Assembly: GCA_963681505.1 (NCBI GenBank)
Contig: OY811972.1
Location: 8,946,775 to 9,010,774, forward strand
Source of the DNA: Eunapius fragilis
Lineage: Eukaryota > Porifera > Demospongiae > Spongillida > Spongillidae
DNA: 64,000 nt
Reading direction: 5' to 3'
Shown here: piece by piece, positions 35,000 through 63,990 of the stretch
Layout: the number at the start of each line of letters is the position of its first letter
Numbering within the stretch: position 1 is the stretch's first letter
The notes under the pieces: generated by a model
Database searches by the model: none
What the model was told of the DNA's origin: nothing
What the model saw: only the letters and a program-made list of their open reading frames with translations
Translations under genes and position numbers: made by a program

Positions 35000-36070
35000 A
35001 TCTGAGAGGTGCTGTCCATTTGCTGGGTGAAAGGAGGGAGAATGACCCTGGAGCAATTTCCCCTTGTGGCTAGGTGAGAGGCAAGGGGTGTCAAAGTCTG
35101 CATGGCTTCTGCACCCCAGCACCCATAAGTCTCCACTGCTATGGGGATACATGTCCAGCCTAGCTCTGAGCACTTGACATCATTAGCATTGTGCTTGTAC
35201 ACCTCAGCTGCCAGAGCTGCAGATCCACTTGTCACACCTGCTTCCAATAACGTACTTGAATTTAGCATAGATGTGACAGTCAGATCTAGAGCTGCTGGTT
35301 TGCCCAAATCCCGATGAGGGATAAGGATGTCTGCTGGCCATGTTCTATGTCCTTCATGCCCCAAACCACTTCCTGCTTCAACTTGAGGACCCAAACAGGC
35401 TCGTCGACAAGATTCTAAGAGGGCATCCCTGAGCCTGTTGTGCCGCGACACCACATCTCCTCCGTGCTTGCATGTTAAGGCATGGTGGCCTTAAGGGTCC
35501 AAAGTATGGGATTGGCAAAAGGAGCAAACAGGAGTATCAGTAACAGCAATGCCCAACCACCACTTTACAGCAATCTGAAACTCAGCAGGTTCAAGATAGA
35601 GATTCAGCCTGAGGGAAGGAATCACAGAGAGCCATACAGCTGCTTGTGGTGAAGAAATTAAAAGCAGATGTGCTTTGTCAGGCAAGGAGACCTTATCAAG
35701 TCACACACTTAAATCATGATCTAGACAGAGATCTTTGGTGCATCACAACATCAAGATGAGCCAACACTAAGGCATCATCAGAGGAGACAAGTTCATTAAA
35801 AGCCTTGATGGATTCGGCTAGTTGCTTGCAAGAAGATGAGCAGACACCAGAAGCACTTAAAGAGAATATGTAGGCAGCTGAACTGTGTTCTGAAAGACTA
35901 CGGAGCCCAAGGCCCCCTCTGCTTAGGCTGAGTTGGGCTTGTTGCCATGTGACATTGGGTGTGTCTATCGCGGTGCATTCAGAAAAACAGCGACGGACAT
36001 CATCATCAAAGAATTGCAAAGCCTCACCAATTAAGGCTGGGGGGGTAGATCTAGCAAGGTTCACCAACTG
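35000..36070 (-). mobile_element. RLE-type retrotransposon, second subfamily (unit 1)
   Basis: Minus strand carries the thumb region (LARSTPPALIGEALQFF), LSLSRGGLGLRSLSEHSSAA, then LEPAEFQIAVKWWLGIA, CSFC knuckle, RHNRLRDALLESC, WPADILIPHRDLGK then ALDLTVTS, and HNANDVKCSELGWTC. Frameshifts occur near 35490 and 35700. It is 5'-truncated at about 36070, where it abuts TTCACCA-type repeats. The second copy is at 47270-48312. Confidence 0.72.
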
Positions 36071-36295
36071 ATAGTGTAAAATTATTGGGCCAATGTTCAC
36101 AAATTGTGTGTATGTAATATTATTAGGCTGTGTTCACCAACAGTGTATTGTACAATAAATTGTGTGGTTCATTGATATTATGATTGTAATATGTTTTATC
36201 AACCAAACACCTGCAATTATTTATTGTTCTACTTTGTGATAGAGACTTTCCTAAAAAGATCAAATAAAAATGAACAAATGGAAAATTAACGGGCA

Positions 36296-36475
36296 TAGTG
36301 GTAGTTTAAGTGGTGATTGACTTGAGCTATCAACCCTGAAGATAACTAGGCCCAGCTTGTACCAGACATGCAGCCCCAAGACTAGGTGCCTGGTTCAAGC
36401 TGGGCCTACAGGTAGTTAGGTTCAGCCTATAGAGATGGTACGATAACTTACCTCGATTACCACTTAAACTACACC
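36296..36475. mobile_element. Palindromic MITE A (unit 1)
   Basis: TAGTTTAAGTGGTGATT and AATTACCACTTAAACTA-like arms, with inner arms ACTAGGCCCAGCTTG / CAAGCTGGGCCTA. The copy in unit 2 is at 48703-48914, where an inner box is tandemly repeated. Confidence 0.65.
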
Positions 36476-36571
36476 TACATGTACATGTATGCCAAATTAG
36501 TGTGTCAAGCAATGAAACTTAAAAGAAAAAAGAAAGTGATCCAGAGAGAAGAGTTAGTGGGATGGACATCA

Positions 36572-36794
36572 GGATCACCTTAGTTACCAAATCTGGGTCT
36601 GGGTGAAGTAAGGTACTGTACACCTTGCTAAACTTGAGACTTCACCAATTCATCATAACAGAGATGGCTTTAACATATTCATAGTTGACCAGGAGTTTGG
36701 TCAACTATGAATATTATAAGAAGCCAATTCTGTTGTGATGAATAGATTAAGTCACAAGTTCACCCAGAACCAGATTTGGTAACTAAGGTAATCC
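36572..36794. mobile_element. Palindromic MITE B (unit 1, uninterrupted)
   Basis: GGATCACCTTAGTTACCAAAT pairs with ATTTGGTAACTAAGGTAATCC, and the centre is a strong hairpin (ATTCATAGTTGACCA / TGGTCAACTATGAAT). In unit 2 the same MITE is split by the ISL2EU element. Confidence 0.7.
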
Positions 36795-36799
36795 TTGAG

Positions 36800-37541
36800 G
36801 GCATTTGGAAATAATTAACATAAATTAAATTTTCAAAAATGCCAACCCTATGAATAATTTTAAGTTCGTTAAACAGGTCAATGTCATACTGTAGGTATTT
36901 AGTTAATTCATTCCCACAAATAAGTAGGCAAAGTATGAAAGGTCATGATGGAAATTAAATATTCAGTGCACAATATTTTCATATAAAAGATGTGGGTGGT
37001 AAACATATATCCAGCAAAGTGTACATATCTATGAAGAGAATTTGAAGTTTAATTAATACTAATTTGATGTGGAATGACTCCATTTTAATCCGATGAATGC
37101 TCAAATTTTTTTAACATTAACATTATTAGGCTGTTTGAGCAATTATTAAGCCTACATATTAAATATTGCATGTACATGAATACATGTACATCAGACTTGT
37201 GTACTTTTACTATATAATTATTTCACGTGTGCTCTCTAATTCTGTACCATGTGTTCTCAAATTGTGTACAATTATAAGGCTGTGTTCAACAATTTGTACC
37301 ATTACATACATGTCATGTAGCCAAGTTCATTACAATCATTAAGATTCAATTAAAAAAATTTGGGCCAATGTGAAGATGAAATTTTAAGACCAATTATCCA
37401 CATGTACCTAATTGTGTACTGTGTTCATCAAGTATCAGACACACACATGATAGTTGTGTAATAACAATTACCAATAATGTTCCCCAATTCATCAATTGTT
37501 AAAACCTTATCTTTCAACAAGCCTCAATTATGGCAAGTGGG

Positions 37542-37575
<34 letters not shown>

Positions 37576-37855
37576 CGCGCATGCCTGTAGTTAACATATA
37601 GATTTTGGTGAACCCATAAATCAATAATTGTCCTTGCAAAGGTATCAAATGCATAATGGTTCCTAAAGGAATAAAGACCTCTATTACACATGCGTATTGT
37701 TTGCCCCAGATTGATTTGCATTGTATGTGGCTCAGGTTATATATCAGTGATCAATCAACATTACTAAAAATCAACAGTTTTCACATGCAAACACAATGCC
37801 AAATCAAGCAGGCATTGACACCGTAACATGTACTGATATACTGACATCAGAATCA
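36800..37855. repeat. TTCACCA-type repeat region downstream of NTPase gene (unit 1)
   Basis: AT-rich, non-coding, with degenerate GTGTTC.(A/C)CAATTGTGTAC modules and a (TG)n tract at 37543-37572. Duplicated at 54755-55810. Confidence 0.6.
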
Positions 37856-37859
37856 AAGA

Positions 37860-39749
37860 TCAAGGTAGGGCCTTAAGACATTTAATTTCTTTGGGCCAGA
37901 CATGTTCAAAAAGAAATTCTTCGTCCAAAACAGAAATATTCTTATGCTTAAAGTATTCCAGTGCTGCAGGTGTGATGCTTCGTGTTGTGGCCAGGTATCT
38001 GAACGAGTTGGACAAGGGGATACCACTTCGCTGGTACGCTTCCAATGCCAGCTTCTCTCGGCTGAAGAATTTTGCGGCAATGTCTTCAGCACTGTCCTGC
38101 TTAACTCCTTTTTCGGCTTCTGTGAAAATAGTAGAGGTGCCAAGCTTCACTTGGACACGATAAGCAATGCTGGACTTGTGGTCGTCTGGTATAAGGACAA
38201 CAGCATCAGCACCAAAGGCATCTCGGCCATGCATGAGCTCCTTGTACATCACATAATGGTCAAAGGACACAGGATGTTCATCACCCTCTTTGTTGAGATT
38301 TAGTGGGGATATCTCAGAGAACTTAACTGGATTTGGAACTTTGGCGATTTTTTCAAATGCTTTGGCCAGAAACCGACAGGTCACATTTTCTGCAACTACT
38401 CCCATCTTATGGCCAGATGGCATGTAAAGAGCAGCAGCCTCAAAGGCAGTCACAATCAGTTTACCTTGCATAGCCACTGTAAAATATACCAGGGGACTGC
38501 CAAACCCAATTCTTTTCAAAGTTGGGTCATCTGTACATGTGATGTACCTAATGAGGCCAGCATCAGCCATGTCATACAAAATGCTCTCTGGATGGTCAGC
38601 AAGGCTTTTTGCAAGGTGCGTTGGAATCAAATGTGTTGTAGCAGCAGCAAAAGTGAGATGATTGAGATTGTCAGTACACCGTGGGAGTGCCTCATATATA
38701 GCTTGAAGCACTTGTGCTCTCTCATCAGGTTCAGGGTCAAACTTGACTGATGAGACATGATAAGTCGAAGACTCCCTGTACTGCAAACACTCAGAGAGAA
38801 CTCCGGGTGAGCCACCTGTTTTGATGAACAACTCTGAGAGAGCATCTGTCTCCTCTTCTGAAGGCACATAATTATCAGGCATGTGATTTATGGTCCGATA
38901 AAGACATAAAAAGGAGTCCACATCAAGAAAAGGGTAGATCCAGCGAGGTTGGTACTTGGTGCTGTTCAGGTCAACACCGGTGTAATTAGGATAGTTTGAT
39001 TTGAGTTCATTTGGTAGCTTGGCAAAGGCCAGTTGACGCAAACGAGTGCTGCTGCCGCTGATAATGCAGTTGATTTGGCCATTTGCATCCTCGCCGAGGG
39101 CAAGTATATCATCAATGGTAAGGCGCCCTTCTGGAAACGCACCCATGTAAACATCGTTAAGTTCATCGACAACCAGGAAAAGCTTTTTGTCTGCGCTCTG
39201 AAGAAGCGCGCTTAGGCGCGTAAATAGCGGAGGTTGGCTCGCTGCAGAAACAATTCGCCCCGCCATGCCTGGTATAATGCCGCAACCACGGAAATAGCCT
39301 TCATCGTGGAGGAGGAGGTCGTACAAGTCCAGCTGCTGCTGTAGGATGATGTTACAGGTTGGTTCGTCCACACAAGCCTCTTCTAGGAACTCTGAGATAT
39401 TTGGTCTGATGCCGGACTTTCGTAGATGGTGGCAAATAATTCTTCCAAGACGCGCAGTTGTATCGGCGTAGGACACATAAAGAGTGATTAGTTCAGGGTA
39501 TGCCGTATTAGCTGCTTTAAGCAAACTCTTCAGTAAAGTTGTTTTGCCGACAGCTTTGCAGCCAAGTAGGAGGCGTCGAAAACGGTTTTGCTTATTTAGT
39601 TCACCATTCATCAGACACGAAACGACAGAAGCTTGTTCGCGTACGAAAGCGCGTCGAGTTTCATCCAGGACACACTCGTCCCTAGGAAAGGACGCCTCCA
39701 ATAATTCTAATTCTGCCATGAACTGAACGCGGGAACAATTAAAGGTCAT
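37860..39749 (-). CDS. P-loop NTPase / PD-(D/E)XK-like nuclease (Crinkler/RHS-like), copy 1
   Basis: Intronless minus-strand ORF. From ATG 39749 it gives 629 residues; from the next ATG (39719, MAELELLEASFPRDE) it gives 619, and I number from the latter. Walker A is GCKAVGKTT at 53-61 and Walker B FLVVDE at 181-186. ISGSSTRLR (220-228) looks like a sensor segment. The C-terminal third has GADAVVLIP (D505) followed by RVQVKLG (Q523-x-K525), the D...QxK core of PD-(D/E)XK nucleases, with E494 as possible helix glutamate. This order matches Crinkler/RHS-type proteins, some of which are secreted or nuclear effectors and some transposon-linked. No signal peptide is evident from either ATG. It has no spliceosomal introns, unlike the ankyrin gene. 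Function here is unknown; a domesticated mobile gene or a defence NTPase are both possible. Confidence 0.75.
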   Translation of the reverse strand: MTFNCSRVQFMAELELLEASFPRDECVLDETRRAFVREQASVVSCLMNGELNKQNRFRRLLLGCKAVGKTTLLKSLLKAANTAYPELITLYVSYADTTARLGRIICHHLRKSGIRPNISEFLEEACVDEPTCNIILQQQLDLYDLLLHDEGYFRGCGIIPGMAGRIVSAASQPPLFTRLSALLQSADKKLFLVVDELNDVYMGAFPEGRLTIDDILALGEDANGQINCIISGSSTRLRQLAFAKLPNELKSNYPNYTGVDLNSTKYQPRWIYPFLDVDSFLCLYRTINHMPDNYVPSEEETDALSELFIKTGGSPGVLSECLQYRESSTYHVSSVKFDPEPDERAQVLQAIYEALPRCTDNLNHLTFAAATTHLIPTHLAKSLADHPESILYDMADAGLIRYITCTDDPTLKRIGFGSPLVYFTVAMQGKLIVTAFEAAALYMPSGHKMGVVAENVTCRFLAKAFEKIAKVPNPVKFSEISPLNLNKEGDEHPVSFDHYVMYKELMHGRDAFGADAVVLIPDDHKSSIAYRVQVKLGTSTIFTEAEKGVKQDSAEDIAAKFFSREKLALEAYQRSGIPLSNSFRYLATTRSITPAALEYFKHKNISVLDEEFLFEHVWPKEIKCLKALP

Positions 39750-39952
39750 GAGAACTGGAACAAGAGAGGAAAACAAAGAGGGCAAACAATGACCTTTGCA
39801 ACACAAATATACATAAAGAAATGGGTGGACAAAAAGAGTGCCATACAAAAATCTTTGAGTTAAACCTGTACCTTGTCCAGACGAACATCAGTTGAACAGC
39901 AAGCTAGCGCAGGCGTCGCGATTCTGTAAGTGGCGCTATTTATTGGTTGCGT

Positions 39953-41302
39953 TGTAACAAAGGTCATGTTAACACCTCTACAGTTAATTAAAGGTCGTGC
40001 TGGATGACCAACCGTTATAACATCACATTGGTGGGATGTCCCGCAGTCTGTGTCAGGTACTGATGGAGTGAAAAAGGTGTGTGGCATAACCTGCATTGGA
40101 GGCACAGAAAAATTGCAGCAGGAACAGGCCAGAGATGTTTACACTTCTCAGATCATTGAGGCACTCAGAAGGGGTGAGTCAACCAATAAGAAAAGAAGAT
40201 GCAGGTACTCTCTAGAAAAGGGAATTTTATGTCATCACTCGATCAAAGGTAGCCATCACCCTCAAGTAATAGTTCCAGCCACCCTACGGCCACTTGTCAT
40301 AGAGCAGTTGCATGACAAGTCTGGACACTTAGGCATTCACAAAACACTAGAAAAACTCAGAGAGTGTTTCTACTGGCCTAAGTGTGCATGATGTCAATGT
40401 CAAGAATGCTATCCAACAGTGTGACATTGCCAGAAAAGGAACAACCCTGTTGCTCACCAACCCTGCCAGTTGATGTGATGTTGGGGCAAGGAGAAAGGAA
40501 ACGAGAGTTGCCAGACTATGTCCAAAGGGTGCAACAGTCCCTTCGAGCTGCATTTTCTTCAGTACATAAACACCTTGATGTTGCACACCAATGCCAACAG
40601 CAAGAAGCTGACAAGCTAAACACTGGGGAAGGCCAGTTGCAGATAGGGGATAGGGTATGGTTGTATGAAACTGGTAAGACCAGGAAATTGGCATTCCTAT
40701 GGTGAGGACCTTATAAAGTTGTTGGCAAACTGAGCACTGTAAATTAAGTCCCAAATTGTTCATAGAAATAGGCTGAAACTTTGTTGTAGCAACCCTGATC
40801 TGCCTGCAGACCAACCACATACAAATATTGAAGCAAGCACATCTAAGCCCAACAATAATTCAGAGTTCTTCACATATGTAGAGCATGACCAAGGTGCAAC
40901 AGAAAAACTAGAAGTCATTCAAGAAGGTAACAAAAGTGACTTGCAAGGCCCTGAAGATCAATATATGGATGTTGAACCTGATCCAGCACCACCACAGTAA
41001 TTCAGAAGAAATCCCCCTAGAAACCGCCAACCACCATTGAGATATAGAGATGATGGGCTTGCAGGAACGCAAGGGCTTGAAGGGGGGAGTTATGTAACAA
41101 GGGTCATGTTAGCACCTCTACTGTTAATTCAAGGTCATGCAGGATGAAGCCTGCCCAGAACATTCTAGAACTCTTCAGAACATTCTAGAACTCTTCAGAA
41201 CATTATCTGTGACTATATATATAGACAGTGTGTTGTGTTGTGTAGAGCTGTTGTTTTCTGTGTAATCCCATTTCCAACTGTTATAACATTATACTTGTTA
41301 CA
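39953..41302 (+). mobile_element. Miniature Ty3/Gypsy LTR element (unit 1)
   Basis: TGTAACAA...ends, flanked by GCGT at 39949-39952 and 41303-41306. 5' LTR 39953-40027 is only ~75 bp because the middle of the LTR is missing; 3' LTR 41093-41302 is 210 bp. A polypurine tract (AAGGGGGGAG) precedes the 3' LTR. Internal plus-strand coding gives the integrase zinc domain (HDKSGHLGIHKTLEKL, FYWPKC) and the integrase C-terminal region, but the catalytic core and everything upstream (gag, protease, RT) are gone. It is non-autonomous and lies about 200 bp upstream of the NTPase gene start, in opposite orientation. Confidence 0.8.
40050..40705 (+). pseudogene. Integrase remnant lacking the catalytic core
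   Basis: Zinc-binding part (HSIKGSHHPQVIVP, HDKSGHLGIHKT, CQ..C) is joined directly to the C-terminal part (LPDYVQRVQQSLRAAF, QIGDRVWLY). The ~200-residue DDE core expected between them is absent. Frameshifts separate the pieces. Confidence 0.65.
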
Positions 41303-41309
41303 GCGTCAT

Positions 41310-43060
41310 TTGTATAACAAAATGGTAGATTGCTCCGTAACCCAAGTTACTAAAATTGTAATATCGCAGAGAACATATAATCAGTGTAGATCAAAGGAAG
41401 GAAAAGGTTTGACAATTATTGTCCTGTTGTGTTGATATCATTGGATGTGTTCATCAATTGTAACAACTATAATGTGCTTGGGTTCACCAATTAGGGAGAC
41501 TTCACTGATTGTGTAACATTATTGGACTAATGTTCACAAATTGTGTGTATGTAATTATTAGGCTATGTTCACCAACAGTGTATTGTACAATTATTACAAT
41601 AAATTGTGTTCACCAATTGTGTTAATGCTAAGTTCACCAGTTGTGGAAAATTATTGCTTCTACATGTACATGGTGTGATTACAAATTATATGCTATTGGT
41701 GAACACAGTTTACATAATTGTTGACCACAAGTACAAGTTAGTTAACCCAATAGGTTTTCAACTGAATATGCTAAATGGAAAATGATGAACCTATACATGT
41801 AGTACAGTTTAGTGAATTCAGCCTCATCATTTAACATACATGTACTTGGTGAACACTCACAAATACAAATGTGAACTATGGACTTGTATACCATGGTGAA
41901 CATGTCTAAAAAAAAAATCTTTTGCCTATTAAAATTGCACACACAATTTGTAAGTGTTCACCAATTGTTTATGAATTGTAACAAATTATTAGGCTCAGTT
42001 AATCAATTGTGAGCTATAATTAAGCTTACACATAAAATATTGTATGTACACCAGACTTGTGTACAGTTACTGTGTTCAATAATTGTGCATAATACATGTG
42101 TTCTCCAAATAGTGTATATGTGTTCGACAGTTTTTACAATTACAGGTTCCAATTAACTTAAGAGACAGATAGTAATTGTAGTGCCTTTTAGTTGTGAGTA
42201 TGTATCTGCTGCTGTGTATCGTATAATAACTTTGGAATTTGATTATCGAACAAACTAATTATGTGGGTGTGTTCACCAATTACAATACATCACATGTAGA
42301 CTGTGCTAATCATTTGAAAACTGTTTTCCCAAATTCTGTAAAATAGCATTAACCCTTCACTACAATGTAGGGTCACCAAATCTGCATAATAAAGACACAT
42401 GTACATGTATGTTTATCAATTGCAGGTAATATTAGTTGGCCAATATTTATCCAACCATGGGATGTGTTATCACTAATATGCTAAATGTAACCATCAGAGC
42501 ACAAAGGGATGCTAGCAAATCAAAAAACTGACATTTCGACAATTATATTAATTAGGTATATGGGGGTGAATATCTCTCTTGTGAGGATGGTAGCTAGGGT
42601 CATCGAAAGTAGAAGAATTGTTCCAGGTTTAAACTTAATAATCAATATTAAAACAATCATCATTTGATTTTGATCAGTTATCATTTATTTCTGAATTGTA
42701 CTCATCAAAATAGTCTCGTAGACCAGACAGACCTACATCGTAATTCAGTGATGAAGTTGGGTGTGGCCCGTCTAGGCACAGCGATCGATATACTTTACTG
42801 GCTCAGCTCACCAAGTGTGTAGCTTTATTGGGCCTACAGTATGTTTACCAAATGTGTACAACTATTAGTCCCGTGTTCTCCAGTGAGTTGCGTGAAAATA
42901 CAAGACACTTAATTTTGTCTCAAACTCAATCCTTTAGGCCAATAGTTATAACAATACCCTCACCCGGCGGATGTACCAGGAAGCATGCAGGAAGTCAGGC
43001 ACAAACAACAACCTATATTAGCGCTAAAACGTCTTACCTGCAATGGAATCCCGTCCTTTA
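41310..43060. repeat. TTCACCA-type repeat region (unit 1)
   Basis: Begins with a short conserved stretch after the LTR (ATGGTAGATTGCTCCGTAAC...), then many degenerate GTGTTCACCAATTGTGT / AATTATTAGGCT modules, then a unique-looking ~850 bp segment that recurs at 63105-63935. Confidence 0.6.
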
Positions 43061-43114
43061 GGAAGCTACGGTGGCCCGGTAGGTCGCGGGTACGAGCAGC
43101 GGTTTGAGAGCAAA

Positions 43115-43495: not shown

Positions 43496-43647
<152 letters not shown>

Positions 43648-43782: not shown

Positions 43783-43853
<71 letters not shown>

Positions 43854-44920: not shown

Positions 44921-44978
<58 letters not shown>

Positions 44979-45041: not shown

Positions 45042-45148
<107 letters not shown>

Positions 45149-47269: not shown

Positions 47270-48312
47270 ATACAATAGACAGGTAGCATGGGACTTGGAG
47301 CAATTTCCCCTGGTGGCTAGGTGAGAGGCAAGGGGTGTCAAAGTCTGCATGGCTTCTGCACCCCAGCACATAAGTCTCCACTGCTATGGGGATACATGTC
47401 CAGCCTAGCTCTGAGCACTTGGCATCATTAGCATTGTGCTTGCACACCTCAGCTGCCATAGCTGCAGATCCACTTGTCACACCCGCTTCCAATAATGTAC
47501 TTGAATTTAGCATAGATGTGACAGTCAGATCTAGAGCTGCTGGTTTGCCCAAATCCCGATGAGGGATAAGGATGTCTGCTGGCCATGTTATATGTCCTTC
47601 ATGCCCCAAACCACTTCCTGCTTCAACTTGAGGACCCAAACAGGCTCGTCGACAAGATTCTAAGAGGGCATCCCTGAGCCTGTTGTGCCGCGACACCACA
47701 TCTCCTCCGTGCTTGCATGTTAAGGCATGGTGGCCTAAAGGGTCCAAAGTATGGGATGGCAAAAGGAGCAAACAGGAATATCAGTAAAAGCAATGTCCAA
47801 CCACCACTTTACAGCAATCTGAAACTCAGCAGGTTCAAGATGGAGATTCAGCTTGAGGGAAGGAATCACAGAGAGCCAAGCAGCTGCATGTGGTGAAGAA
47901 ATGGAAAGCAGACGTGCTTTGTCAGGCAAGGAGACCTTATCAAGTAACACACTTAAATCATGATCTTCAATTTTGCCAGACAGAGATCTTTGGTGCATCA
48001 CAACATCAAGATGATCCAACACTAAGGCATCATCAGAGGAGACAAGTTCATTAAAAACCTTGATGGATTTCGGCTAGGTGCTTGCAAGAAGATGAGCAGA
48101 CACCAGAAGCACTTAAAGAGGATATGTAGGCAGCTGAACTGTGTTCTGAAAGACTATGGAGCCCAAGGCCCCCTCTGCTTAGGCTGAGTTGGGCTTGTTG
48201 CCATGCAACATTGGGTGTGTCTATCGCGGTGCATTCAGAAAAACAGCGACGGACATCATCATCAAAGAATTGCAAAGCCTCACCAATTAAGGCTGGGGGT
48301 AGATCTAGCAAG
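47270..48312 (-). mobile_element. RLE-type retrotransposon, second subfamily (unit 2)
   Basis: Paralogous copy of 35000-36070 produced by the segmental duplication: same 5' truncation point and same downstream flank. Its 3' side diverges below about 47295, which helps place the duplication boundary. The endonuclease core WPADILIPHRD then ALDLTV is kept. Confidence 0.72.
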
Positions 48313-48461
48313 GTGCACCAACTGATAGTGTAAAATTATTGGGCCAATGTTCACAAATTGTGTGTATGTAATTATTAGGCTGTGTTCACCAACAGTGTAT
48401 TGTACAATTATTAAAATAAATTGTGTGATCAACCAAACGGCTGCAATTATTTAATGTTCTA

Positions 48462-48636
48462 CAGTCTACCCTCAATATAGTCCGGGCTACGGGAACCCCC
48501 AAATAAGCGGACTGTAGGACAAACGGATAATAGCGATGCGAAGTTTAGCTTACAAAGGGTTAGTAGTTGGCAAGAAAAATAGCGGACATTATCGCGGATG
48601 GACTGTATCGAAGTGGACACTATCGAGGGTAGACTG
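48462..48636. mobile_element. pogo/Tigger-like MITE, 175 bp
   Basis: Ends CAGTCTACCCTCAATATAG and CTATCGAGGGTAGACTG, flanked by TA at 48460-48461 and 48637-48638. Unit 1 has the empty site (GTTCTACTTTG at 36227-36237). The CAGT..ACCCTC termini and TA duplication are typical of pogo/Tigger elements. Non-coding. Confidence 0.8.
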
Positions 48637-48702
48637 TACTTTGTGATAGAGACTTTCCTAAAAAGATTAAATAAAAATGAACACATAGAAAATTAACGGG
48701 CA

Positions 48703-48914
48703 TAGTGGTAGTTTAAGTGGTGATTGACTTGAGCTATCATCCCTGAAGGCTAAACCTAACTTGTCTGAAGGCTAAACCTAACTAGGCCCAGCTTGTACCA
48801 GGCATACAGCCCCAGACTAGGTGCCTGGTTCGAGCTGGGCCTACAGGTAGTTAGGTTCAGCCTATAGAGATGGTAAAACGATAGCTTACCTCGATTACCA
48901 CTTAAACTACACCT
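48703..48914. mobile_element. Palindromic MITE A (unit 2)
   Basis: Duplicate of 36296-36475; the GAAGGCTAAACCTAACT box occurs twice here. Confidence 0.65.
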
Positions 48915-49736
48915 ACATGTATATGTATGCCAAATTAGTGTGTCAAGGAATGAAACTTAAAAGAAAAAAGAAAGTGATCCAGAGAGAAGAGTTAGTGGGA
49001 TGGACATCAGGATCACCTTAGTGACCAAATCTGGGTCTGGGTGAAGTAAGGTACTGTACACCTTGCTAAACTTGTGACTTCACCAATAGACAACTTCAGG
49101 AATGTTGATTGAATAGATATAATTGCCTTTGACGTCACATCCGGAGTACACGCGTCGAAGCGTTCGTGTTCTAAATGCTAGAGCTAAACAAGCACAACTT
49201 ACAGTTACTGTATCCCATAAGCACGTAAGCGAGTAGAATGCTTTGAAAGATGTTGTTCAGTTGTTTTGTGTAATCTCAGACTTAGCCACGTGGACAACTT
49301 ACATGAATCTATCAGAGATAATATATAGAGGGATTGGCAACGAGTTCACTTAACGCTAATTAACGCGTGCCATCCGCACGTGAATCCATAGAAATTTCCT
49401 GTTCCCCTAAGTTTCCAGGCAACCTTGTACAGGCACTTTGAGTATGAAAAGCTAGACATAAGTCCACTGATCTGACAACCAGTTTTGCTTTATTCCTCAA
49501 TCAACTATAATCCTAGAGGAATGGATTGGCATTGACCTTTGGATGATATGGTTTACTAGCTTAATCCTTGCTAACTTACAAGTTACAAAAGTCATATTTA
49601 TATCCTGGAGGCTTCACGACCATGCAGCACTAATTGCATTGATACAGAGCCACCATAACTTGGTGCACTGTGAACCTTACAAACATGTAATGGCCTGTTC
49701 CAGTAAAAGAAGTGGGGTTTGGGCATGTGAAGGTGT

Positions 49737-49971
49737 TGGGGGGAGGGGGGGGGGGTTGCTAATTTGGCGGAATTTATATAGTTACAGTAAAGAGTGGGAG
49801 GGAAGATGAGAGTGACAGGACTGTTTTGCCTTTTGTGCAGCCATGCATTATCCAAATTCTACTCGATCCAGACCCCCTTCACAGTGCACCAGCTCCTGAA
49901 CCCATTCCATTACATCACAACTGCTCCTGTTGAATCCCTTTGTCCCACACCCCCACACCCCCCCCCCCCCC
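49737..49971. repeat. Poly-G / poly-C pair
   Basis: A G-rich run at about 49737-49756 and a C-rich run at about 49950-49970 face each other and could pair into a hairpin. Confidence 0.6.
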
Positions 49972-50286
49972 AACTCTCACACACTCTTCCAAGCAACAAT
50001 AAATCCCATCCCCTCACCACAAATGACAAATGGAATTGTGTAGGGGGTATTTTAAGGTTACATTCGAGATGGGTGTGAGGAGTAGAGTAGGATCGTTTGA
50101 AACCAATTGGACTTTTAAGCAGTAGTGGTTTCATGCTAAACTTTTATACACACTCTTGTCAACGGTAATAAAAGCTGGATACAGCAGGCTAGTGGTAGTA
50201 CTCAACGATCAAGAAACAGACTATTCTCGCGAGGCTGTGGGCGCTCGCCGTTCTTTTGCGAATAAATTCACATTCTCTTCGAAAAA

Positions 50287-50640
50287 ATGCAGGTTGTCAA
50301 CCAAACGCGTGGTGCACATCACTATACTTGGACGCTAAAATGTAAGGAATGTGCTACAAGCCAGTATCGGTTTTATAGTACTAGCTTGCTTAGCAATGAC
50401 TACACTGTCCCACAAGATTTGCATACTCGATATGTTATACGGGTGGTACTGAGCGCGTTATTGGCAAAACAAGAATGGCACGCTAAAATACAACCATTTT
50501 TAAGTTGGGGTAACGGATTTCAGAAAGAACTACCCGTCGATTCACTAGATACTGTCCCACAAAAAAGAGCGCACCCAACATTGGAATTTTTCGCTGAACT
50601 TGGACAAAAAAAAAATGACGCGAAGAACTCTCGATCCTGA
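50287..50640 (+). CDS. Short open frame upstream in ISL2EU, unrecognised
   Basis: 117 residues, starting MQVVNQTRGAHHYTW. No family recognised. Same strand as the YqaJ gene and about 230 bp before its SAP exon. It could be a first exon, a nested insertion or a chance frame. Confidence 0.3.
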   Translation: MQVVNQTRGAHHYTWTLKCKECATSQYRFYSTSLLSNDYTVPQDLHTRYVIRVVLSALLAKQEWHAKIQPFLSWGNGFQKELPVDSLDTVPQKRAHPTLEFFAELGQKKNDAKNSRS

Positions 50641-50645
50641 AAAGC

Positions 50646-52794
50646 TTGTTAAAATACACATATACAATAACCTGCTTGCGTACTACAGTGAAACGTGCTT
50701 ATCCATCTTTGTTCCAAAACGCCAGCGAATTTTCGTACCCCTTTCACACTTCGATGTACGTGTTATTCACAGCAGGTCGGATGGCACACATAAAATTGCA
50801 AATATCTATGGCTCACGTGACGCGTTGCCAATCCCTCTATATATTATCTCTGAATCTATCTTCGTCAGGAGATACCTGCAGCACAGCCGAGCTTTCTGAA
50901 AACGACATCCCTGGCGCTTCATTGACTGAACCATTAGAGGCCCACAATGTGGCAGCACTAAAATGGTGGCTTCTTTGCCGTGGGATAAAAGTTAAGTCAT
51001 CTAGTAGAAAAAAGGAGATAATAGAGAGGATCAGGGAAGCTATGAGAAGTGGAGCAAAGGTCATTGACGTGGACGGCTCATATGTTGCTCGCAAACGGCA
51101 ACTACAGTGCGAGATTATAAACGAACCAACAGGCTTGGTCACCGATATTGGCTTACCTATTACTGGTTGGGAGGTTATTTCAGCTGAGAATTACAAGTCT
51201 TACTCATGCAAGATGCCTACAGTTACCCTTGGTCAGTAATACATGACGCAGATATACATAATTATTGTAGTTTATCTTCCTTGTTAGGAATTCTCTATGA
51301 ATACCTTGCAAAAGGTGTTGGTCGATCACAAGACAAGGGTGCTTTCAGAGCAATCTCAAGGGGCTACAACCACTGGGCATCAGGAAGGATAGAGAGGGTT
51401 GAAATAAACACACGACATCCAAACTTGTGTCATGTGCAATGCATAATGAAGCCATCAATGAAAGTAGGAAAGTACCATGTATATGTTTTGCTTGACCATG
51501 AAGGAACCTTGGCATCTATAAAAAAGGCTACCTGTGAATGTCCTGCTGGGTAGGTTGGAGTATACACATGATATGTGCCTGTGCATGTACATCTTTGTTT
51601 CCCAAATACAGAAAATCAGCTTCCTGCACACATATTTCAGCATTGCTACATGCTCTAGTGACAATGACATCTATGAATGTGTCTGGACATCAAGATGAAA
51701 AAGACACTGAACTACCAGTCACATCTTATTTATGTAAATGGAATGTTCCTCGGGTACGAAAAGATTGCACTTTAAGGATATCAGAACAAAAATTTCAGAA
51801 ACATGATTATAGACAGTTGAAGAAGGCTAAGTATAGCAGTGTGCAAGATTTTGACCCAAGGCCACTTCAATACAGGGGTACAGCAAAAACAGAGCTTGAA
51901 GCATTATTAAGTAAAGTGAAAGGAAAAGGGCTGGGTATTTCATTGCTACTTGACCCAACATATTGTGACAGAAATACAGTAAAAAGTACTCCAGTTGCAC
52001 CAGGCTTACCTACACAGCTACAGTTAGAAGAATTCATTCATCAGTTTAAATTGAGCCTCTCTTTATCAGAAGAAAAGATAAATGAAGTTGAATTTAATAC
52101 AAGGGAACAACGCAACTCACCATTGTGGTTTTCTGCTCGAAAATATAGACTGACAGCATCAACGTTTGGAGAAATTTTCCATTTTCAGCCAGACACAACT
52201 CCTGATCGCATTGTTCTTAGACTATTGAAGGGCAAACAGTTTACATGTCCTTCTGTACAATGGGGAATAGAAAATGAACCAGTGGCAATTCAAGCTTATA
52301 TAAAGCATCAGCAGACAAATGGTCACCATGGATTGACTGTTGACCCTGTTGGATTTCTTATCAGCAAAGACTATCCATTCCCTGGTGCATCTGCAGATGG
52401 CACTGTCCATGATCCTACAAGTGACCAACAGTTAGGATTTCTTGAAGTTAAGTGCCCCTATACACATCGTTGCCTTTCACCGTATGAAGCCAGTCAAGAT
52501 AAGTCTTTTTATTGTTGCCCTTCAGACAACAAAACTATAACCCTGAAGTGCAATAGTAACTACTACTGCCAAGTGCAAGGACAAATGGCAGTTGGAAAGA
52601 GGCCTTGGTGCGACTTTGTTGTGTATACAACAAAGGGCATCAATGTTGAACGAATCAGGTTTAACCCAGACTACTGGGCTGAAGTACTAATGAAATTAAC
52701 AGATTTTTATGACAAGTGCTTTGCTCCAGAACTGGTTAGCCCGCTACATGTTCTAGGACAAAAAGTACGAGATCTGCGATCAAATGATCTGTAA
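50646..52794 (+). CDS. ISL2EU second protein: SAP - SWIM zinc finger - YqaJ nuclease
   Basis: Three exons: up to 51231, 51288-51549 and 51612-52794, with introns of 56 bp (GTCAGT...TTGTTAG) and 62 bp (GTAGGT...ATACAG). Order: SAP DNA-binding motif (LEAHNVAALKWWLLCRGIKV), SWIM-type C-x-C ... C-x-H formed across the second intron (CECPAG / KSASCTHISALLHAL), then a YqaJ/lambda-exonuclease-like domain with RLTASTFGEI, GIENEPVAIQAY, PGASADG, FLEVKCPYTH and YYCQVQGQMAV. The E-x-K and preceding D motifs of the nuclease are kept, so this gene looks intact. The N-terminus is uncertain: an acceptor at 50868 suggests an upstream exon not identified here. Confidence 0.8.
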
Positions 52795-52905
52795 GCATAC
52801 AAACACATCATTCTTTACAAAAATTATGAACACCGTATTGAAAATATAAAATGCTATTGTTATCTCAATGACAACTATCATCTGAGTCTGAGCATGCATG
52901 ATCAT

Positions 52906-53030
52906 CATCTGTATCATCCAATGTTTGAATATATGTATCCACATCTGTGTCACTTAAGTCAGTCACATCATCTGTATCATCCAATGTTTGAATATATATG
53001 TATCCACATCTGTGTCACTTAAGTCAGTCA
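52906..53030. repeat. Direct ~62-bp duplication at transposase 3' end
   Basis: ATCATCTGTATCATCCAATG...CACTTAAGTCAGTCA occurs twice in tandem; the right copy encodes the transposase tail (LSDTDVDTYIF). Confidence 0.8.
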
Positions 53031-54508
53031 TAGCAGGTACAAGGGCAGGTTGAAAGTTTGTTAACCATGCACAAACACTTACAATGTGGTTGGTAAGCCG
53101 TATCATTGACAGAGGAATCTCTTCCTTTAAAATAGAATAGCTTTTTATTCTTCGAATAGCTCGTTCTACATGAATTCGAAGTGATGCAATGTTTCTCCCT
53201 TTTAACACATCATCTGGAGACAACTGGTTACCACCATCAAGAAAAGGTGGTATATTAAGGTCAACTCCAATTTCTTTTAGCTGGTCTTTAATTGTAAAAC
53301 CTTTGTCCGCCATGATTGAAATCCCATTTTTTCCTTCTAGTTTCTTTAGAAATCCTGACACTCTAGTTAGTTCAACATCAGATATTGAACCGACATATAA
53401 AGGTGAGATATAACTGATGGCACCATTGGGAGTACAGGCTATCAAAAATTTAGCTGTATTGTGATGCTTGTACTGACTCCATGTAGAGGCCTGTAAATGC
53501 AAGTCAGAGGGAGTTTGAATAAAGACTTCACTTCCATCAACTATAGCAAACGTTGAAGGGTATTTCTTAAAGAATGAATCAGGCAATGTTGCAGCAACCT
53601 GACTAGGTGAAGGCATCCATTCAATCTCATTCAAGTGTTGATAAAGAAAACAAATCCATGTATTTCGATACCTCTGACTCTGATATACCAAATCGCACTG
53701 CTAGATCCAAATTTCTTAGATTCAGCTTAAGCTTCATTAAGGTCAGAAAAAACTCATCAATTGCATCCAATGACCTTTTCCTAGCTTTCTGAGGCTTTTT
53801 TCTTTTTTCCTCCCCCCAATATGTAAGGTTTGAAACTGAGGGACCCAAAAACTCAAAAAAAGCCAACAAAATCTCATATGACTGAAACCCTGTGTACAGT
53901 TTAACAAGCTTGTCATTTTCTGCTATATCTGTAATTTTAAAGTAAACTTTCTCTTTGGTAAAAAAGTCCAGTTTCTTAGTTAACTCGTTATTCCCTTTCT
54001 CTAAAGTTTTGATTCGATCAAGCATTGCCGCAGTGTTTGTCTCACAAGCTGAATCAATATGTTCTTCAGGAATCTCGTACACTTGATAGTCTGTAATGAG
54101 TTGCTCACCCACATTTGCTATCATAGACTTTGGGAGCGTGTCAGTACTAATGGAAACTATCTGTTCATCAGGAACACTTAATTCATCATGACCATTCGGT
54201 TGCATTTGCGATATAGTAACCGAAGCCCTTCTTAATTCCCGCCCTACAGCTCTCCTGTTTCTCTCGGTGCCTTTCTTCATTGGAGATGCCAAATGTCTAC
54301 CAAGGTTAAGCTGTGGATCGTTTCTTGCATCAGCATCTAAGAAGTGTCGACTGAAAACACGATGGTACTCTTTTATCACAACACTGGTAAGGTCAAGCGC
54401 TTCAATCCATCGTAGCCTCTTCGCACGCTCTTGAGGAAAGCGATGAAAAGAAGCACTTCCATCCTTGGCCTTCGTATTTTGACATACGATGCAAACGTTT
54501 CCTGGCAT
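52963..54508 (-). pseudogene. ISL2EU THAP-DDE transposase, frameshifted
   Basis: ATG at 54508 opens MPGNVCIVCQNTKAKDG, a THAP domain with C6 and C9, FHRFP and the RW pair. The third zinc ligand is replaced: HRVFSRHF where RVCSxHF is expected. A helix-turn-helix follows (FLTLMKLKLNLRNLDLAVRF, GISESEVSKY). Near 53660 the frame is lost and coding resumes in another frame at NTWICFLYQHLNEIEWMPS. It continues through the DDE domain: FAIVDGSEVFI (D), SIMADKGF (D) and HVERAIRRIK (E). About eight bases seem to be missing at the break. All three acidic catalytic residues are present, but the protein cannot be made in one piece unless by frameshifting. Confidence 0.8.
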
Positions 54509-54754
54509 TACTGTGACTACAAAGCGCTATACTCAGTTTCTTCGACTGTACTCCGGACGTGACGTCACACATCATTAAAACTAATGAAACATTCCAGAAA
54601 GTTGTCTATTCATCACAACAGAGATGGCTTTAACATATTCATAGTTGACCAGGAGCTTGGTCAACTATGAATATTATAAGAAGCCAATTCTGTTGTGATG
54701 AATAGATTAAGTCACAAGTTCACCCAGAGCCAGATTTGGTAACTAAGGTAATCC

Positions 54755-55498
54755 TTGAGGGCATTTGGAAATAATTAACATAATTTTTCGATAATGGCCA
54801 ACCCTATGAATAATTTTAAGTTCGTTAAACAGGTCAATGTCATACTGTAGGTATTTAGTTAATTCATTCCCACAAAGAAGTAGGCAAAGTATGAAAGGTC
54901 ATGATGGAAATTAAATATTCAGTGCACAATATTTTCATTTAAAAGACGTGGGTGGTAAACATATATCGAGCAAAAGTGTGCATATCTATGAGGAGAATTT
55001 GAAGTTTAAATAATACTAATTTGATGTGGAATGACTCCATTTTAATCCGATGAATGCTCAAAATTTAACATTAACATTATTAGGCAGTTTGAGCAATTAT
55101 TAAGTCTACATATTAAATATCGCATGTACATGAATACATGTACATCAGACTTGTGTACTTTTACTATATAATTATTTCACGTGTGCTCTCCAATTCTGTA
55201 CCATGTGTTCTCATATTGTGTACAATTATAAGGCTGTGTTCAACAATTTGTACCATTACATACATGTCATGTAGCCAAGTTCATTACAATAATTAAGATT
55301 CAATAAAAAAAAAAATTTGGGCCAATTTGAAGATGAAATTTTAAGACCAATTATCCACATGTACCCAATTGTGTACTGTGTTCACCAAGTATCAGACACA
55401 CACATGATAGTTGTGTAATAACAATTACCAATAATGTTCCCCAATTCATCAATTGTTAAAACCTTATCTTTCAACAAGCCTCAATTATGGCAAGTGGG

Positions 55499-55540
<42 letters not shown>

Positions 55541-55810
55541 CGCGCGTGCCTGTAGTTAACATATAGATTTTGGTGAACCCATAAATCAATAATAGTCCTT
55601 GCAAAGGTATCAAATGCATAATGGTTCCTAAAATAATAAATACCTCTATTACACATGCATATGGTTTGCCCCCAGATTGATTTGCATTGTATGTGGTTCA
55701 GATTATATATCAGTGATCAATCAACATTATCACAAATCAACGGTTTTCACATGCACACACACGGTAACATATACACACATTCATACCAAGTATATACTGA
55801 TATCAGAATC
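54755..55810. repeat. TTCACCA-type repeat region downstream of NTPase gene (unit 2)
   Basis: Collinear with 36795-37855; (TG)n tract at 55501-55538 is longer than in unit 1. Confidence 0.65.
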
Positions 55811-55815
55811 AAAGA

Positions 55816-57705
55816 TCAAGGTAGTGCCTTAAGGCATTTAATTTCTTTGGGCCAAACATGTTCAAAAAGAAAATCTTTGTCCAAAACTGAAATATTCTTA
55901 CGCTTAAAGTATTCCTGTGCTGCAGGTGTGATGTTTCGTGTTGTGGCCAGGTATCTGAACCAGTTGGACAAGGGGATGCCACTTCGCTGGTATGCTTCCA
56001 ATGCCAGTTTCTCTCGGCTAAAGAATTTAGTGGCAATGTCTTCAGCACTGTCCTGCTTAATTCCTTTTTCAGCTTCTGTGAAAATAGTAGAGGTGCCAAG
56101 CTTCACTTGGATACGATAAGCAATGCTGGACTTGTGGTCGCCTGGTATAAGGACAACAGCATCAGCACCAAAGGCATCTCGGCCATGCATGAGCTCCTTG
56201 TACATCACATAATGGTCAAAGGACACACAATGTTCATCACCCTCTTTGTTGAGATTTAGTGGGGATATCTCAGAGAACTTAACTGGATTTGGAACTTTGG
56301 CAATTTTTTTTAATGCTTTAGCCAGAAACCGACAGGTCACATTTTCTGCAACTACTCCCATCTTATGGCCAGATGGCATGTAAAGAGCAGCAGCCTCAAA
56401 GGCAGTCACTATCAGTTTACCTTGCATAGCCACTGTAAAATATACCAGGGGACTGCTAAACCCAATTCTTTTCAAAGTTGGATCATCTGTGATGTACCTA
56501 ATGAGGCCAGCATCAGCCATGTCATACAAAATGCTCTCTGGATGGTCAGCAAGGCTTTTTGCAAGGTGCGTTGGAATCAAATGTGTTGTAGCAGCAGCAA
56601 AAGTGAGATGATTGAGATTGTCAGTACACCGTGGGAGTGCCTCATATATAGCTTGAAGCACTTGTGCTCTCTCGTCAGGTTCAGGGTCAAACTTGACCGA
56701 TTTGGCTGAGACATGATAGGTCGACGACTCCCTGTTCTGCAAACACTCTGAGAGAACTCCGGGTGAGCCACCTGTTTTGATGAACAACTCTGAGAGAGCA
56801 TCTGTCTCCTCTTCTGAAGGCACATAATTATCAGGCATGTGATTTATGGTCCGATAAAGACATAAAAAGGAGTCCACATCAAGAAAAGGGTAGATCCAGC
56901 GAGGTTGGTACTTGGTGCTGTTCAGGTCAACACCGGTGTAATTAGGATAGTTTGATTTGAGTTCATTTGGTAGCTTGGCAAAGGCCAGTTGACGCAAACG
57001 AGTGCTGCTGCCGCTGATAATGCAGTTGATTTGGCCATTTGCATCCTCGCCAAGGGCAAGTATATCATCAATGGTAAGGCGCCCTTCTGGAAACGCACCC
57101 ATGTAAACATCGTTAAGCTCATCGACAACCAGGAAAAGCTTTTTATCTGCGCTCTGAAGAAGCGCGCTTAGGCGCGTAAATAGCGGAGGTTGGCTCGCTG
57201 CAGAAACAATTCGCCCCGCCATGCCTGGTACAATGCCGCAACCACGGAAATAGCTTTCATCGTGGAGGAGGAGGTCGTACAAGTCCAGCTGCTGCTGTAG
57301 GATGATGTTACAGGTTGGTTCGTCTACACAAGCCTCTTCTAGGAACTCTGAGATATTTGGTTTAATGCCAGACTTTCGTAGATGGTGGCAAATAATTCTT
57401 CCAAGACGCACCTTTGTATCGGCGTAGGACACATAAAGAGTGATTAGTTCAGGGTATGCCGTATTAGCTGCTTTAAGCAAACTCTTCAGTAAAGTTGTTT
57501 TGCCGACAGCTTTGCAGCCAAGTAGGAGGCGTCGAAAACGGTTTCGCTTATTTAGTTCACCTTTCATCAGACACGAAACGACAGAAGCTTGTTCACGTAC
57601 GAAAGCGCGTCGAGTTTCATCCAGGACACACTCGTCCCTAGGAAAGGACGCCTCCAATAATTCTAATTCTGCCATGAACTGAACGCGGGAACAATTAAAG
57701 GTCAT
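55816..57705 (-). CDS. P-loop NTPase / PD-(D/E)XK-like nuclease (Crinkler/RHS-like), copy 2
   Basis: Paralogue of the 37.9 kb gene, 629 residues from ATG 57705 or 619 from ATG 57675. Walker A GCKAVGKTT, Walker B FLVVDE, GADAVVLIP and RIQVKLG are all kept. Relative to copy 1 it lacks two codons after RYIT and has two extra after STYHVS, so both copies stay open with equal length. About 25 amino-acid differences are scattered, with none in the catalytic motifs. The gene lies between the same 3' repeat region and the same upstream LTR element. Both being open suggests function or very recent duplication. Confidence 0.75.
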   Translation of the reverse strand: MTFNCSRVQFMAELELLEASFPRDECVLDETRRAFVREQASVVSCLMKGELNKRNRFRRLLLGCKAVGKTTLLKSLLKAANTAYPELITLYVSYADTKVRLGRIICHHLRKSGIKPNISEFLEEACVDEPTCNIILQQQLDLYDLLLHDESYFRGCGIVPGMAGRIVSAASQPPLFTRLSALLQSADKKLFLVVDELNDVYMGAFPEGRLTIDDILALGEDANGQINCIISGSSTRLRQLAFAKLPNELKSNYPNYTGVDLNSTKYQPRWIYPFLDVDSFLCLYRTINHMPDNYVPSEEETDALSELFIKTGGSPGVLSECLQNRESSTYHVSAKSVKFDPEPDERAQVLQAIYEALPRCTDNLNHLTFAAATTHLIPTHLAKSLADHPESILYDMADAGLIRYITDDPTLKRIGFSSPLVYFTVAMQGKLIVTAFEAAALYMPSGHKMGVVAENVTCRFLAKALKKIAKVPNPVKFSEISPLNLNKEGDEHCVSFDHYVMYKELMHGRDAFGADAVVLIPGDHKSSIAYRIQVKLGTSTIFTEAEKGIKQDSAEDIATKFFSREKLALEAYQRSGIPLSNWFRYLATTRNITPAAQEYFKRKNISVLDKDFLFEHVWPKEIKCLKALP

Positions 57706-57902
57706 GAGAACTGGAACAAGAGAGGAAAACAAAGAGGGCAAACAATGACCTTCGCAACACAAATATACATAAAGAAATGGGCGGACAAAAAGAGTGCCCT
57801 ACAAAAATCTTTGAGTTAAACCTGTACCTTGTCCAGACTGACATCAGTTGAACAGCAAGCAGGCGTCGCGATTCTATAAGTGGCGCTATTTATTGGTTGC
57901 GT

Positions 57903-59285
57903 TGTAACAAAGGTCATGTTAACACCTCTACAGTTAATTAAAGGTCGTGCAGGATGACCAACCGTTATAACATCATACTTGTTACATTGGTGGGATGTCC
58001 CGCAGTCTGTGTCAGGTACTTATGGAGTGAAAAAGGTGTGTGGCATAACCTGCATCGGAGGCACAGAAAAATTGCAGCAGGAACAGGCCCGAGATGTTTA
58101 CACTTCTCAGATCATTGAGGCACTCAGAAGGGGTGAGTCAACCAATAAGAAAAGGAGATGCAGGCACTCTCTAGAAAAGGGAGTTTTATGTCGTCACTCG
58201 ATCAAAGGTAGCCATCACCCTCAAGTAATAGTTCCAGCCACCCTACGGCCACTTGTCATAGAGCAGTTGCATGACAAGTCTGGACACTTAGGCATTCACA
58301 AAACACTAGAAAAACTCAGAGAGCGTTTCTACTGGCCTAAGTGTGCATGATGTCAATGTCAAGAATGCTATCCAACAGTGTGACCGTTGCCAGAAAAGGA
58401 ACAACCCTGTTGCTCACCAACCCTGCCAGTTGATGTGATGTTGGGAGAAGGAGAGAGGAAACAAGAGTTGCCAGACTATGTCCAAAGGGTGCAACAGTCC
58501 CTTCGAGCTGCATTTTCTTCAGTACGTAAACACCTTGATGTTGCACACCAATGCCAAAAGCGAGAAGCTGACAAGCTAAACACTGGGGAAGGCCGGTTGC
58601 AGATAGGGGATAGGGTGTGGTTGTATGTCACAGCTGTAAGACCAGGAAATTGGCATCCCAATGACGAGGACCTCATACAGTTGTTGACAAACTGAGCACT
58701 GTAAATTACAAAATATAAATCATTGGTGGAATTAAGTCCCAAGTTGTTCATAGAAATAGGCTGAAACTTTGTTGTAGCAACCCTGATCTGCCTGCAGTCC
58801 AACCACATACAAATATTGAAGCGAGCACATCTAAGCCCAACAATAATTCTGAGTGCTTCACATATGTAGAGCATGACCAAGGTGCAACAGAAAAACAGGA
58901 AGTCATTCAAGAAGGTAACAAAAGTGACTTGCAAGGCCCTGAAGATCAATATATGGATGTTGAACTTGATCCAGCATCACCACAGCAATTCAGAAGAAAT
59001 CCCCCTAGAAACCGCCAACCACCATTGAGATATAGAGATGATGGCCATTAGCCTTGCAGGGACGCAAGGGCTTGAAGGGGGGAGTTATGTAACAAGGGTC
59101 ATGTTAACACCTCTACTGTTAATTAAAGGTCTTGCATGATGAAGCCTGCCCAGAACATTCTAGAACTCTCCAGAACATTCTAGAACTCTCTGTGACTATC
59201 TATATATATAGTGTGTTGTGTTGTGTAGAGCTGTTGTTTTCTGTGTAATCCTATTTCCAACCGTTATAACATTATACTTGTTACA
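57903..59285 (+). mobile_element. Miniature Ty3/Gypsy LTR element (unit 2)
   Basis: Same element and same GCGT duplication (57899-57902 and 59286-59289). 5' LTR 57903-57986 is 84 bp and retains the ACTTGTTACA end that unit 1 has lost; 3' LTR is 59088-59285. Internal reading: LGIHKTLEKLRERFYWPKC, CDRCQKRNNP, then LPDYVQRVQQSLRAAF and RLQIGDRVWLYVTAVRPG. The identical site shows that insertion preceded the segmental duplication. Confidence 0.8.
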
Positions 59286-59289
59286 GCGT

Positions 59290-62200: not shown

Positions 62201-63100
62201 ACAGTTGTGAAATTATTTGTACATATTGAACACACAATGGTGTCTAGACATGTATGTTCAATATCTAGACAATTTTTTAATAAGCCTCCATACATGTACT
62301 TGGTGAACATACACAAATACAATTATTGGTGAACACAGCCTAAATATTCCATTCTGAGCGTTCACCGATTATGGAATAGGCTGTGCTCCCAGTTTGAAGA
62401 ATGTGATATTTTAATTTGACTGTGGACTATGGTTCAAACATTGTGTTAAATCATTGTGTGTGTGTGTGTGTGTATGTTAATGTCAGTTATGTACATTTGT
62501 ACAATTATTAATTACTAGGCACTGTTCAACAATTGTGTAACATCACCACAGTCCATGTGTACACTAATTTTTAGGCTGTGGACCCCAATAATTAAATCTA
62601 CAAGTCTTCTAAGTACAGCAGTTGTGGACAATTATTATCAGGCTGTTTTGCATGTGTTCATCAATTGTAACAACTATAATGTGCTTGGGTTCACCAATTA
62701 TGGAGACTTCACTGATTGTGGAAAATTATTGGGCCAATGTTCACAAATTGTGTGTATGTAATTATTAGGCTGTGTTCACCAACAGTGTATTGTACAATTA
62801 TTACAATAAATTGTGTGGTTCACCAATTGTGTTAATGCTAAGTTCTCCAGTTGTGGAAAATTATTGCTTCTACATGTACATGGTGTGATTACAAATTATA
62901 TGCTATTGGTGAACCCACAGTTTACATAATTGTTAACCACAAGTACAAGTTAGTTAACCCAATAGGTTTTGAACCGAATATGCTTAATGGAAAATGATAA
63001 ACCTACACATGTAATACAGATTAGTGAATTTAGTCTCATCTATACATGTACTTGGTGAACACTCACAAATACAACTTGTGAACTACATGTACATGTATTG
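59290..63100. repeat. Long array of degenerate TTCACCAATTGTGT-type repeats (unit 2)
   Basis: Non-coding, AT-rich. Repeated modules include TGTGTTCACCAATTGTGT, ACAATTATTAGGCTGTG and TTGGTGAACACA, in both orientations. The sub-segment CATCAATTGTAACAACTATA... occurs at 59438, 60296 and 62659, so the array grew by internal duplication. Confidence 0.7.
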
Positions 63101-63829
63101 GTGAACATATACATATCTGCTGCTGTGTATCGTATAATAACTTTGGAATTTGATTATCGAACAAACTAATTATGTGGGTGTGTTCACCAATTCCAATGCA
63201 TCACATGTAGACTGTGCTAATCATTTTTTCCCAAATTCTGTAAAATAGCATTAACCCTTCACTACAATGTAGGGTCACCAAATCTGCATAATAAAGGCAC
63301 ATGTACATGTATGTTCATCAATTGCACGTAATATTAGTTGACCAATATTTATCCAACCAGGGGATGTGTTATATGCTAAATATAACCACCAGAGCACAAA
63401 GGGATACTTATCAAAAAACTGACATTTAGACAATTATATTAATTAGGTATATGGGGTGAATATCTCTCTACTGAGGATGGTAGCTTGGGTCATCGAAAGT
63501 AGAAGAATTGTTCCAGGTTTAAACTTAATAATCAATATTAAAACAATCATCATTTGATTTTGATGAAGTATCATTTATTTCTGAATTGCACTCACCAAAA
63601 TAGTCTCGTAGACCAGACAGACCTACATCGTAATTCAGCGATGAAGTTGGGTGTGGCCCGACTAGGCACAGCGATCGATATACTTTACTGGCTCAGCTCA
63701 CCAAGTGTGTAGCGTTATTGGGCCTACAGTATGTTTACCAAATGTGTACAACTATTAGTCCCGTGTTCTCCAGTGAGTTGCGTGAAAATATCAGACAGTC
63801 GACTCAAACTCAATAATCCTTTATAGCTA

Positions 63830-63990
63830 TGGCGGATGTACCAGGAAGCATGCAGGAAGACAGGCACAAACAACACACAATATTAGCGCCAAGAGGTCTT
63901 ACGTACCTGCAATGGAATCCCGTCCTTTAGGAAGCACTCCCGCTGTTAAAGAGCTCCATCAATAGAGTAAACAGCTGCAGATCCCTGTCT
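63830..63990. other. Exon-like block near the window edge
   Basis: Two readings are possible. Plus strand: ATGGAATCC... gives MESRPLGSTPAVKELHQ then a stop. Minus strand: a 36-bp piece between ...TTTAACAG and GTACGT encodes RECFLKDGIPLQ. In unit 1 the same block (WECFLKDGIPLQ) is split by the foldback element. Which strand is real, if either, cannot be settled here. Confidence 0.3.

Follow-up and report, generated by a model that had tools for sequence, protein, structure and literature searches.

Crinkler-type nucleases are best known as effectors of parasites. The Crinkler-RHS (CR) class with which we compare it (PMC5289972) unites a P-loop NTPase, a helix-turn-helix (HTH) and a nuclease of the restriction endonuclease (REase) superfamily. 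A section of a second study (PMC11342252, section 19) presents Medea1 of the beetle Tribolium as a combination of a CR-NTPase and a CR-REase in an animal; it also gives the CR-REase7 signature, shared by Medea1 and CifB, as an active-site Glu with a His three residues downstream. Here we describe a duplicated gene in a window of 64,000 nucleotides (nt) from Eunapius fragilis (contig OY811972.1), the product of which is probably a header-less protein with the C-terminal architecture of the CR class: an ATP-switched, intracellular DNA nuclease acting in the cell that produces it. Such a header-less, duplicated version with all catalytic-type residues in an apparent animal genome would bear on the intracellular use of these proteins in animals, be it for defence or selfishly, beside the case of Medea1.

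A predicted NTPase-nuclease fusion and its relatives

The gene occupies a minus-strand frame that runs from stop to stop over 675 codons (37860-39887) with no internal stop, for which the chance expectation at the base composition here is ~7e-16; the intronless frame proposed in an earlier note, made from the sequence alone, is thus real. That note began translation at the ATG at 39749 (629 residues). The ATG at 39719, yielding 619 residues with the N-terminus MAELELLEASF, is the likelier start because the relatives P0003 and P0005 share this N-terminus, and all residues are numbered from it. All the elements listed in the note were found: Walker A at residues 53-61 (GCKAVGKTT), Walker B at 181-186 (FLVVDE) and the D...QxK core (D505...Q523-x-K525). 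The NTPase-nuclease fusion that the note read from them is backed by two structure predictions and by the invariance of the catalytic-type residues. Structure prediction of both halves, which it had proposed as a check, returned an NTPase fold and a nuclease fold. The note's single gene holds up as a gene, but a second intact copy on the same strand (Table 1) had been overlooked.

In the N-terminal half, the model joins the two Walker motifs to an ORC-like core fold, as expected of an AAA+/STAND NTPase, with the P. abyssi ATPase 2qen ranking fourth in the Foldseek search. The Pfam search of the window proteins (P0001 and P0002) at E<=1 gave for P0002 only P-loop NTPase families (AAA models, DAP3 and Pox_A32), each below its cut-off; ten further queries at E<=0.5, namely nine relatives and a C-terminal piece, produced matches of the P-loop NTPase kind along with sporadic weak matches of other kinds, none of them better than E 0.009, and nothing for P0016, P0022 or the C-terminal piece. 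A profile search of the PDB with alignment A3 likewise recovered matches of the AAA type, of which 7jgr_G (E 2.3e-4) was the best, and no match across the nuclease part. PADLOC and NCBIfam were each queried with three of the 25 proteins considered below; PADLOC gave weak matches only (best E 0.004), whereas in NCBIfam P0002 matched nothing and P0015 and P0021 had weak P-loop matches. Matches to titin among the PDB sequences (four sequences, best E 5.7e-5) were discounted as fortuitous because the stretch concerned is predicted to adopt the AAA+ fold.

The C-terminal half is predicted to form the alpha-beta-beta-beta-alpha-beta core of the PD-(D/E)XK nucleases, in which neighboring strands carry D...(E/Q)xK. 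Between the halves, the model has helices and a beta hairpin that would fit a winged helix, and the structure alignment with ORC2 (1w5s_A) extends to model residue 387. At the other end, the first NTPase strand begins at residue 48 of 619, preceded in the model by a short helix (6-9) and a long one (20-37). The 47 residues ahead of that strand are too few to accommodate a header domain, whether Ubl/LXLFLAK or another type, and Pfam at E<=1 gave no header-type family for the window proteins.

Two protein searches recovered relatives ranging from 97% to 25% identity, at least 23 in number, this being a lower bound because each search scored only ~7,995 word-rich candidates; a third, among ~7,995 scored candidates, returned P0021 alone, probably owing to this same cap. 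Conservation was counted over 25 proteins, comprising the 23 relatives found and both window copies. G222, S223 and S224 are present in all 25, and E444 in each of the 21 with a letter at that position. D500, D505, Q523 and K525 occur in 18 of 18, the remaining seven proteins being gapped at all four. A tree was built from 20 of these proteins, after P0012, P0014, P0018, P0023 and P0024 had been dropped. In it, copy 1 groups with P0003 (99/98), followed by copy 2 (89/85) and then by P0004; several deep rows sit on long branches and are unsurely placed. From its grouping, P0003 could represent either an allele of copy 1 or its orthologue.

Farther afield, pattern scans of viral contigs with A2, A4 and P0025 gave 44, 60 and 5 pattern matches, and scans of prokaryote genome contigs with A2 and A4, combined with tblastn, gave 35 and 6, none of which was confirmed; a scan of plasmids with P0021 found no match. 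These scans depend on short conserved patterns or close similarity, such that distant relatives could escape them. When the full model was used as the query against a viral structure library, the top Foldseek match was an uncharacterised 509-residue Sylvanvirus protein, A0A3G5AH84 (E 7.9e-12 over 445 columns, TMq 0.41; the best PDB entry reached 1.8e-7, in a library of different size), which is possibly a giant-virus relative with a similar predicted architecture.

Two intact copies in a segmental duplication

The two copies differ at 50 of 1854 aligned bases (2.7%), their 5' flanks at 33 of 1020 (3.2%) and their 3' flanks at 49 of 1194 (4.1%). Because more than 1 kb on each side was duplicated at a divergence like that of the gene, this duplication is segmental and not a move of the gene alone; the earlier suggestion of a domesticated mobile gene gains no support from it. 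Between the copies, the synonymous divergence (dS) is 0.065 and the nonsynonymous (dN) 0.017, giving a dN/dS of 0.257 (bootstrap range 0.14-0.46) that is a mean over both copies. As the upper bound lies below 0.5, constraint on both copies is likely, if not certain, and the sequences point to likely purifying selection on the pair.

Table 1. Coordinates of the gene copies, their predicted parts and the duplicated blocks
Feature	Position in window	Strand	Details
Gene copy 1, NTPase-(winged HTH)-PD-(D/E)XK protein	37860..39719	-	619 aa, one open frame
P-loop NTPase domain, ORC/Cdc6/TnsC-like (predicted)	38760..39686	-	residues 12-320; structure prediction and structure search
Walker A GCKAVGKT	39540..39563	-	residues 53-60; K59 and T60 in 22/22 proteins with a letter there, of 25
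Walker B FLVVDE	39162..39179	-	residues 181-186; D185 and E186 in 24/24 with a letter there, of 25
Helices and beta hairpin, putative winged helix	38502..38723	-	residues 333-406; DSSP of model, 1w5s_A alignment
PD-(D/E)XK nuclease domain (predicted)	37896..38411	-	residues 437-608; predicted structure
Catalytic-type Asp D505	38205..38207	-	18/18 proteins with a letter there, of 25
QVK motif, Q523-K525	38145..38153	-	Q 18/18 and K 18/18 with a letter there, of 25
Gene copy 2, intact	55816..57675	-	619 aa; 22 aa differences in 617 aligned codons vs copy 1
Unit 1 of tandem segmental duplication	35049..43066		portion with detectable partner blocks in unit 2
Unit 2 of tandem segmental duplication	47296..63935		holds the 5.5-kb transposon and other insertions
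Duplication block pair	35049-36156 vs 47296-48408
Duplication block pair	36648-40746 vs 54608-58708		95.3%
Duplication block pair	40742-41491 vs 58730-59475
Duplication block pair	41441-42175 vs 60284-61010
Duplication block pair	42203-43066 vs 63114-63935

The surroundings are rich in mobile elements. Just upstream of copy 1 lies a possible remnant of a long-terminal-repeat element (39953-41147), bounded by the two copies of a 55-bp direct repeat (39953-40007 and 41093-41147, 89%) and containing an Integrase_H2C2 fragment (40050-40388, plus strand); it could influence the promoter of this copy. Unit 2, and not unit 1, holds a 5.5-kb DNA transposon (49087-54608) with the ends AGACAACTT...AAGTTGTCT and an apparent 2-bp target duplication, AT. 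On its minus strand it codes for a protein with THAP and HTH_Tnp_4 domains (THAP-domain part at 53630-54526) and a DDE_Tnp_4 transposase, and on the plus strand for a 418-residue protein of the YqaJ/viral-alkaline-exonuclease type (51538-52791). THAP is mainly an animal domain, and to that extent this transposon fits the animal-type genome that the earlier note had surmised. Elsewhere, 1-16000 appears to hold a retroelement arrayed in tandem, with three repeats of ~5.5 kb placed head-to-tail and minus-strand RVT_1 matches (2188-2646 and 7535-8155) marking pieces of reverse transcriptase; more fragments extend to ~28000. Nested inverted repeats occupy 43066-45540, with arms of up to 401 nt, 97% complementarity and a separation of 368 nt. 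Scans of the whole window for tRNAs and Rfam families found nothing.

Proposed action and competing interpretations

In the mechanism that we propose, the ORC/STAND-like P-loop NTPase would bind and hydrolyze ATP and act as a switch or assembly module, the winged-helix-like middle part might contact DNA or relay the switch, and the C-terminal PD-(D/E)XK nuclease would cut DNA with its D...QxK active site. The two folds and the catalytic-type residues are established at the level of structure prediction and conservation; we infer that ATP gates the nuclease, that it acts on DNA and that the protein takes part in genome conflict.

As to that role, we tentatively favor, at a probability somewhat short of even, a host-domesticated defence nuclease: a fixed gene whose product would sense foreign or mobile DNA through its NTPase-winged HTH part and cut it, by a logic like that of the Avs STAND-nucleases. 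The apparent purifying selection on the copy pair and the lack of a delivery domain agree with this, as do the structure matches: the many AAA+ proteins that resemble the NTPase half include Avs3 and BrxC, and the proteins that resemble the nuclease half include Avs4 and Shedu. Against it, replication and transposition ATPases outscore Avs3 among the matches of the NTPase half. The nuclease half is also similar to RPB5, a non-catalytic member of this fold class, and no poly(A)-signal hexamer was found within ~600 nt of the stop of either copy, which counts against activity or expression. These two observations would suit degenerate or inactive copies, either an ORC-like ATPase whose nuclease-like tail lacks catalytic function or two pseudogenes. 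We regard this as highly improbable: both frames are intact, the pairwise dN/dS has a bootstrap upper bound of 0.46 and the catalytic-type residues are invariant wherever the proteins have a letter.

A gene of a selfish element or a toxin, as in the beetle Medea1, whose nuclease would kill or skew inheritance and whose multiple copies would reflect selfish spread, is rather unlikely. The cited section on Medea1 (PMC11342252, section 19) provides a precedent for the CR-NTPase and CR-REase combination in an animal, the neighborhood is rich in transposons, and P0003 (97% identity) and P0004 (92%) stem from different records. However, the copies were duplicated along with their flanks, the REase7 signature is absent (a Gln, then Leu at +3), and no adjacent antidote gene was seen, though none was systematically searched for. 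Restriction of invasive or mobile DNA is somewhat more likely than a selfish toxin. A secreted Crinkler-type effector from parasite DNA assembled here would, for its part, have to do without space for a header, and the THAP transposon suggests an animal genome; we hold it to be very unlikely. Returning to the domesticated defence nuclease, its furthest extension would be a STAND-like family of NTPase-nucleases that lacks a header, has multiplied in early-branching animals and is maintained there by purifying selection. Its members would be immune endonucleases that protect the cell producing them from mobile or viral DNA, an animal counterpart of bacterial Avs-type defence. In this full form the proposal is doubtful.

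Comparison with described conflict systems

The likeness to the CR proteins lies in domain order, a predicted P-loop NTPase followed by a REase-superfamily nuclease, as judged from their description; the transposon-rich setting is also shared. Unlike them, the window protein has no header, and the weak Pfam matches of P0002 are confined to P-loop NTPase families. The label "Crinkler/RHS-like" in the earlier note therefore survives for the domain order and not for the header. The RHSP family of trypanosome RHS proteins, which has a model in the Pfam library, was not matched by either window protein at E<=1 or by the ten further queries at E<=0.5. With respect to the CR-NTPase8-REase7 proteins Medea1 and CifB (PMC11342252, in the section cited), the NTPase-REase fusion is common to both sides, and Medea1 comes from an animal; their REase7 Glu and His are, in contrast, replaced here by Q-x-K-L, with Gln in the place of the Glu in 18 of 18 proteins and the Leu at +3 invariant in the 17 sequences of A3. 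As both the header and the REase7 signature are missing, we class the protein neither as a Crinkler effector nor as a Medea1-type REase7.

Proteins with ATPase_2/AAA_14 domains occur fused to DUF234/DUF4143 nucleases. Some likeness to such prokaryotic ATPases with a C-terminal nuclease shows in the sub-threshold ATPase_2 matches of P0015 and P0019 (E 2.5e-4, 21.4 bits, cut-off 33.2) and in the Foldseek match to 2qen, but Pfam gave no DUF234/DUF4143 match, and among the prokaryote genomes the pattern scan with tblastn confirmed no relative. The bacterial Avs3 and Avs4 STAND nucleases also pair a P-loop NTPase with a PD-(D/E)XK domain, and Avs3 appears among the matches of the NTPase half, Avs4 among those of the nuclease half. 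However, the Avs4 nuclease is N-terminal (matched chain residues 2-174) whereas that of the window protein is C-terminal, and the matched Avs chains span 2028 and 1534 residues against 619 here, the large remainder being absent. By its predicted architecture, then, the gene resembles the C-terminal module of Crinkler-type conflict proteins stripped of its delivery part, and so belongs to a kind already known.
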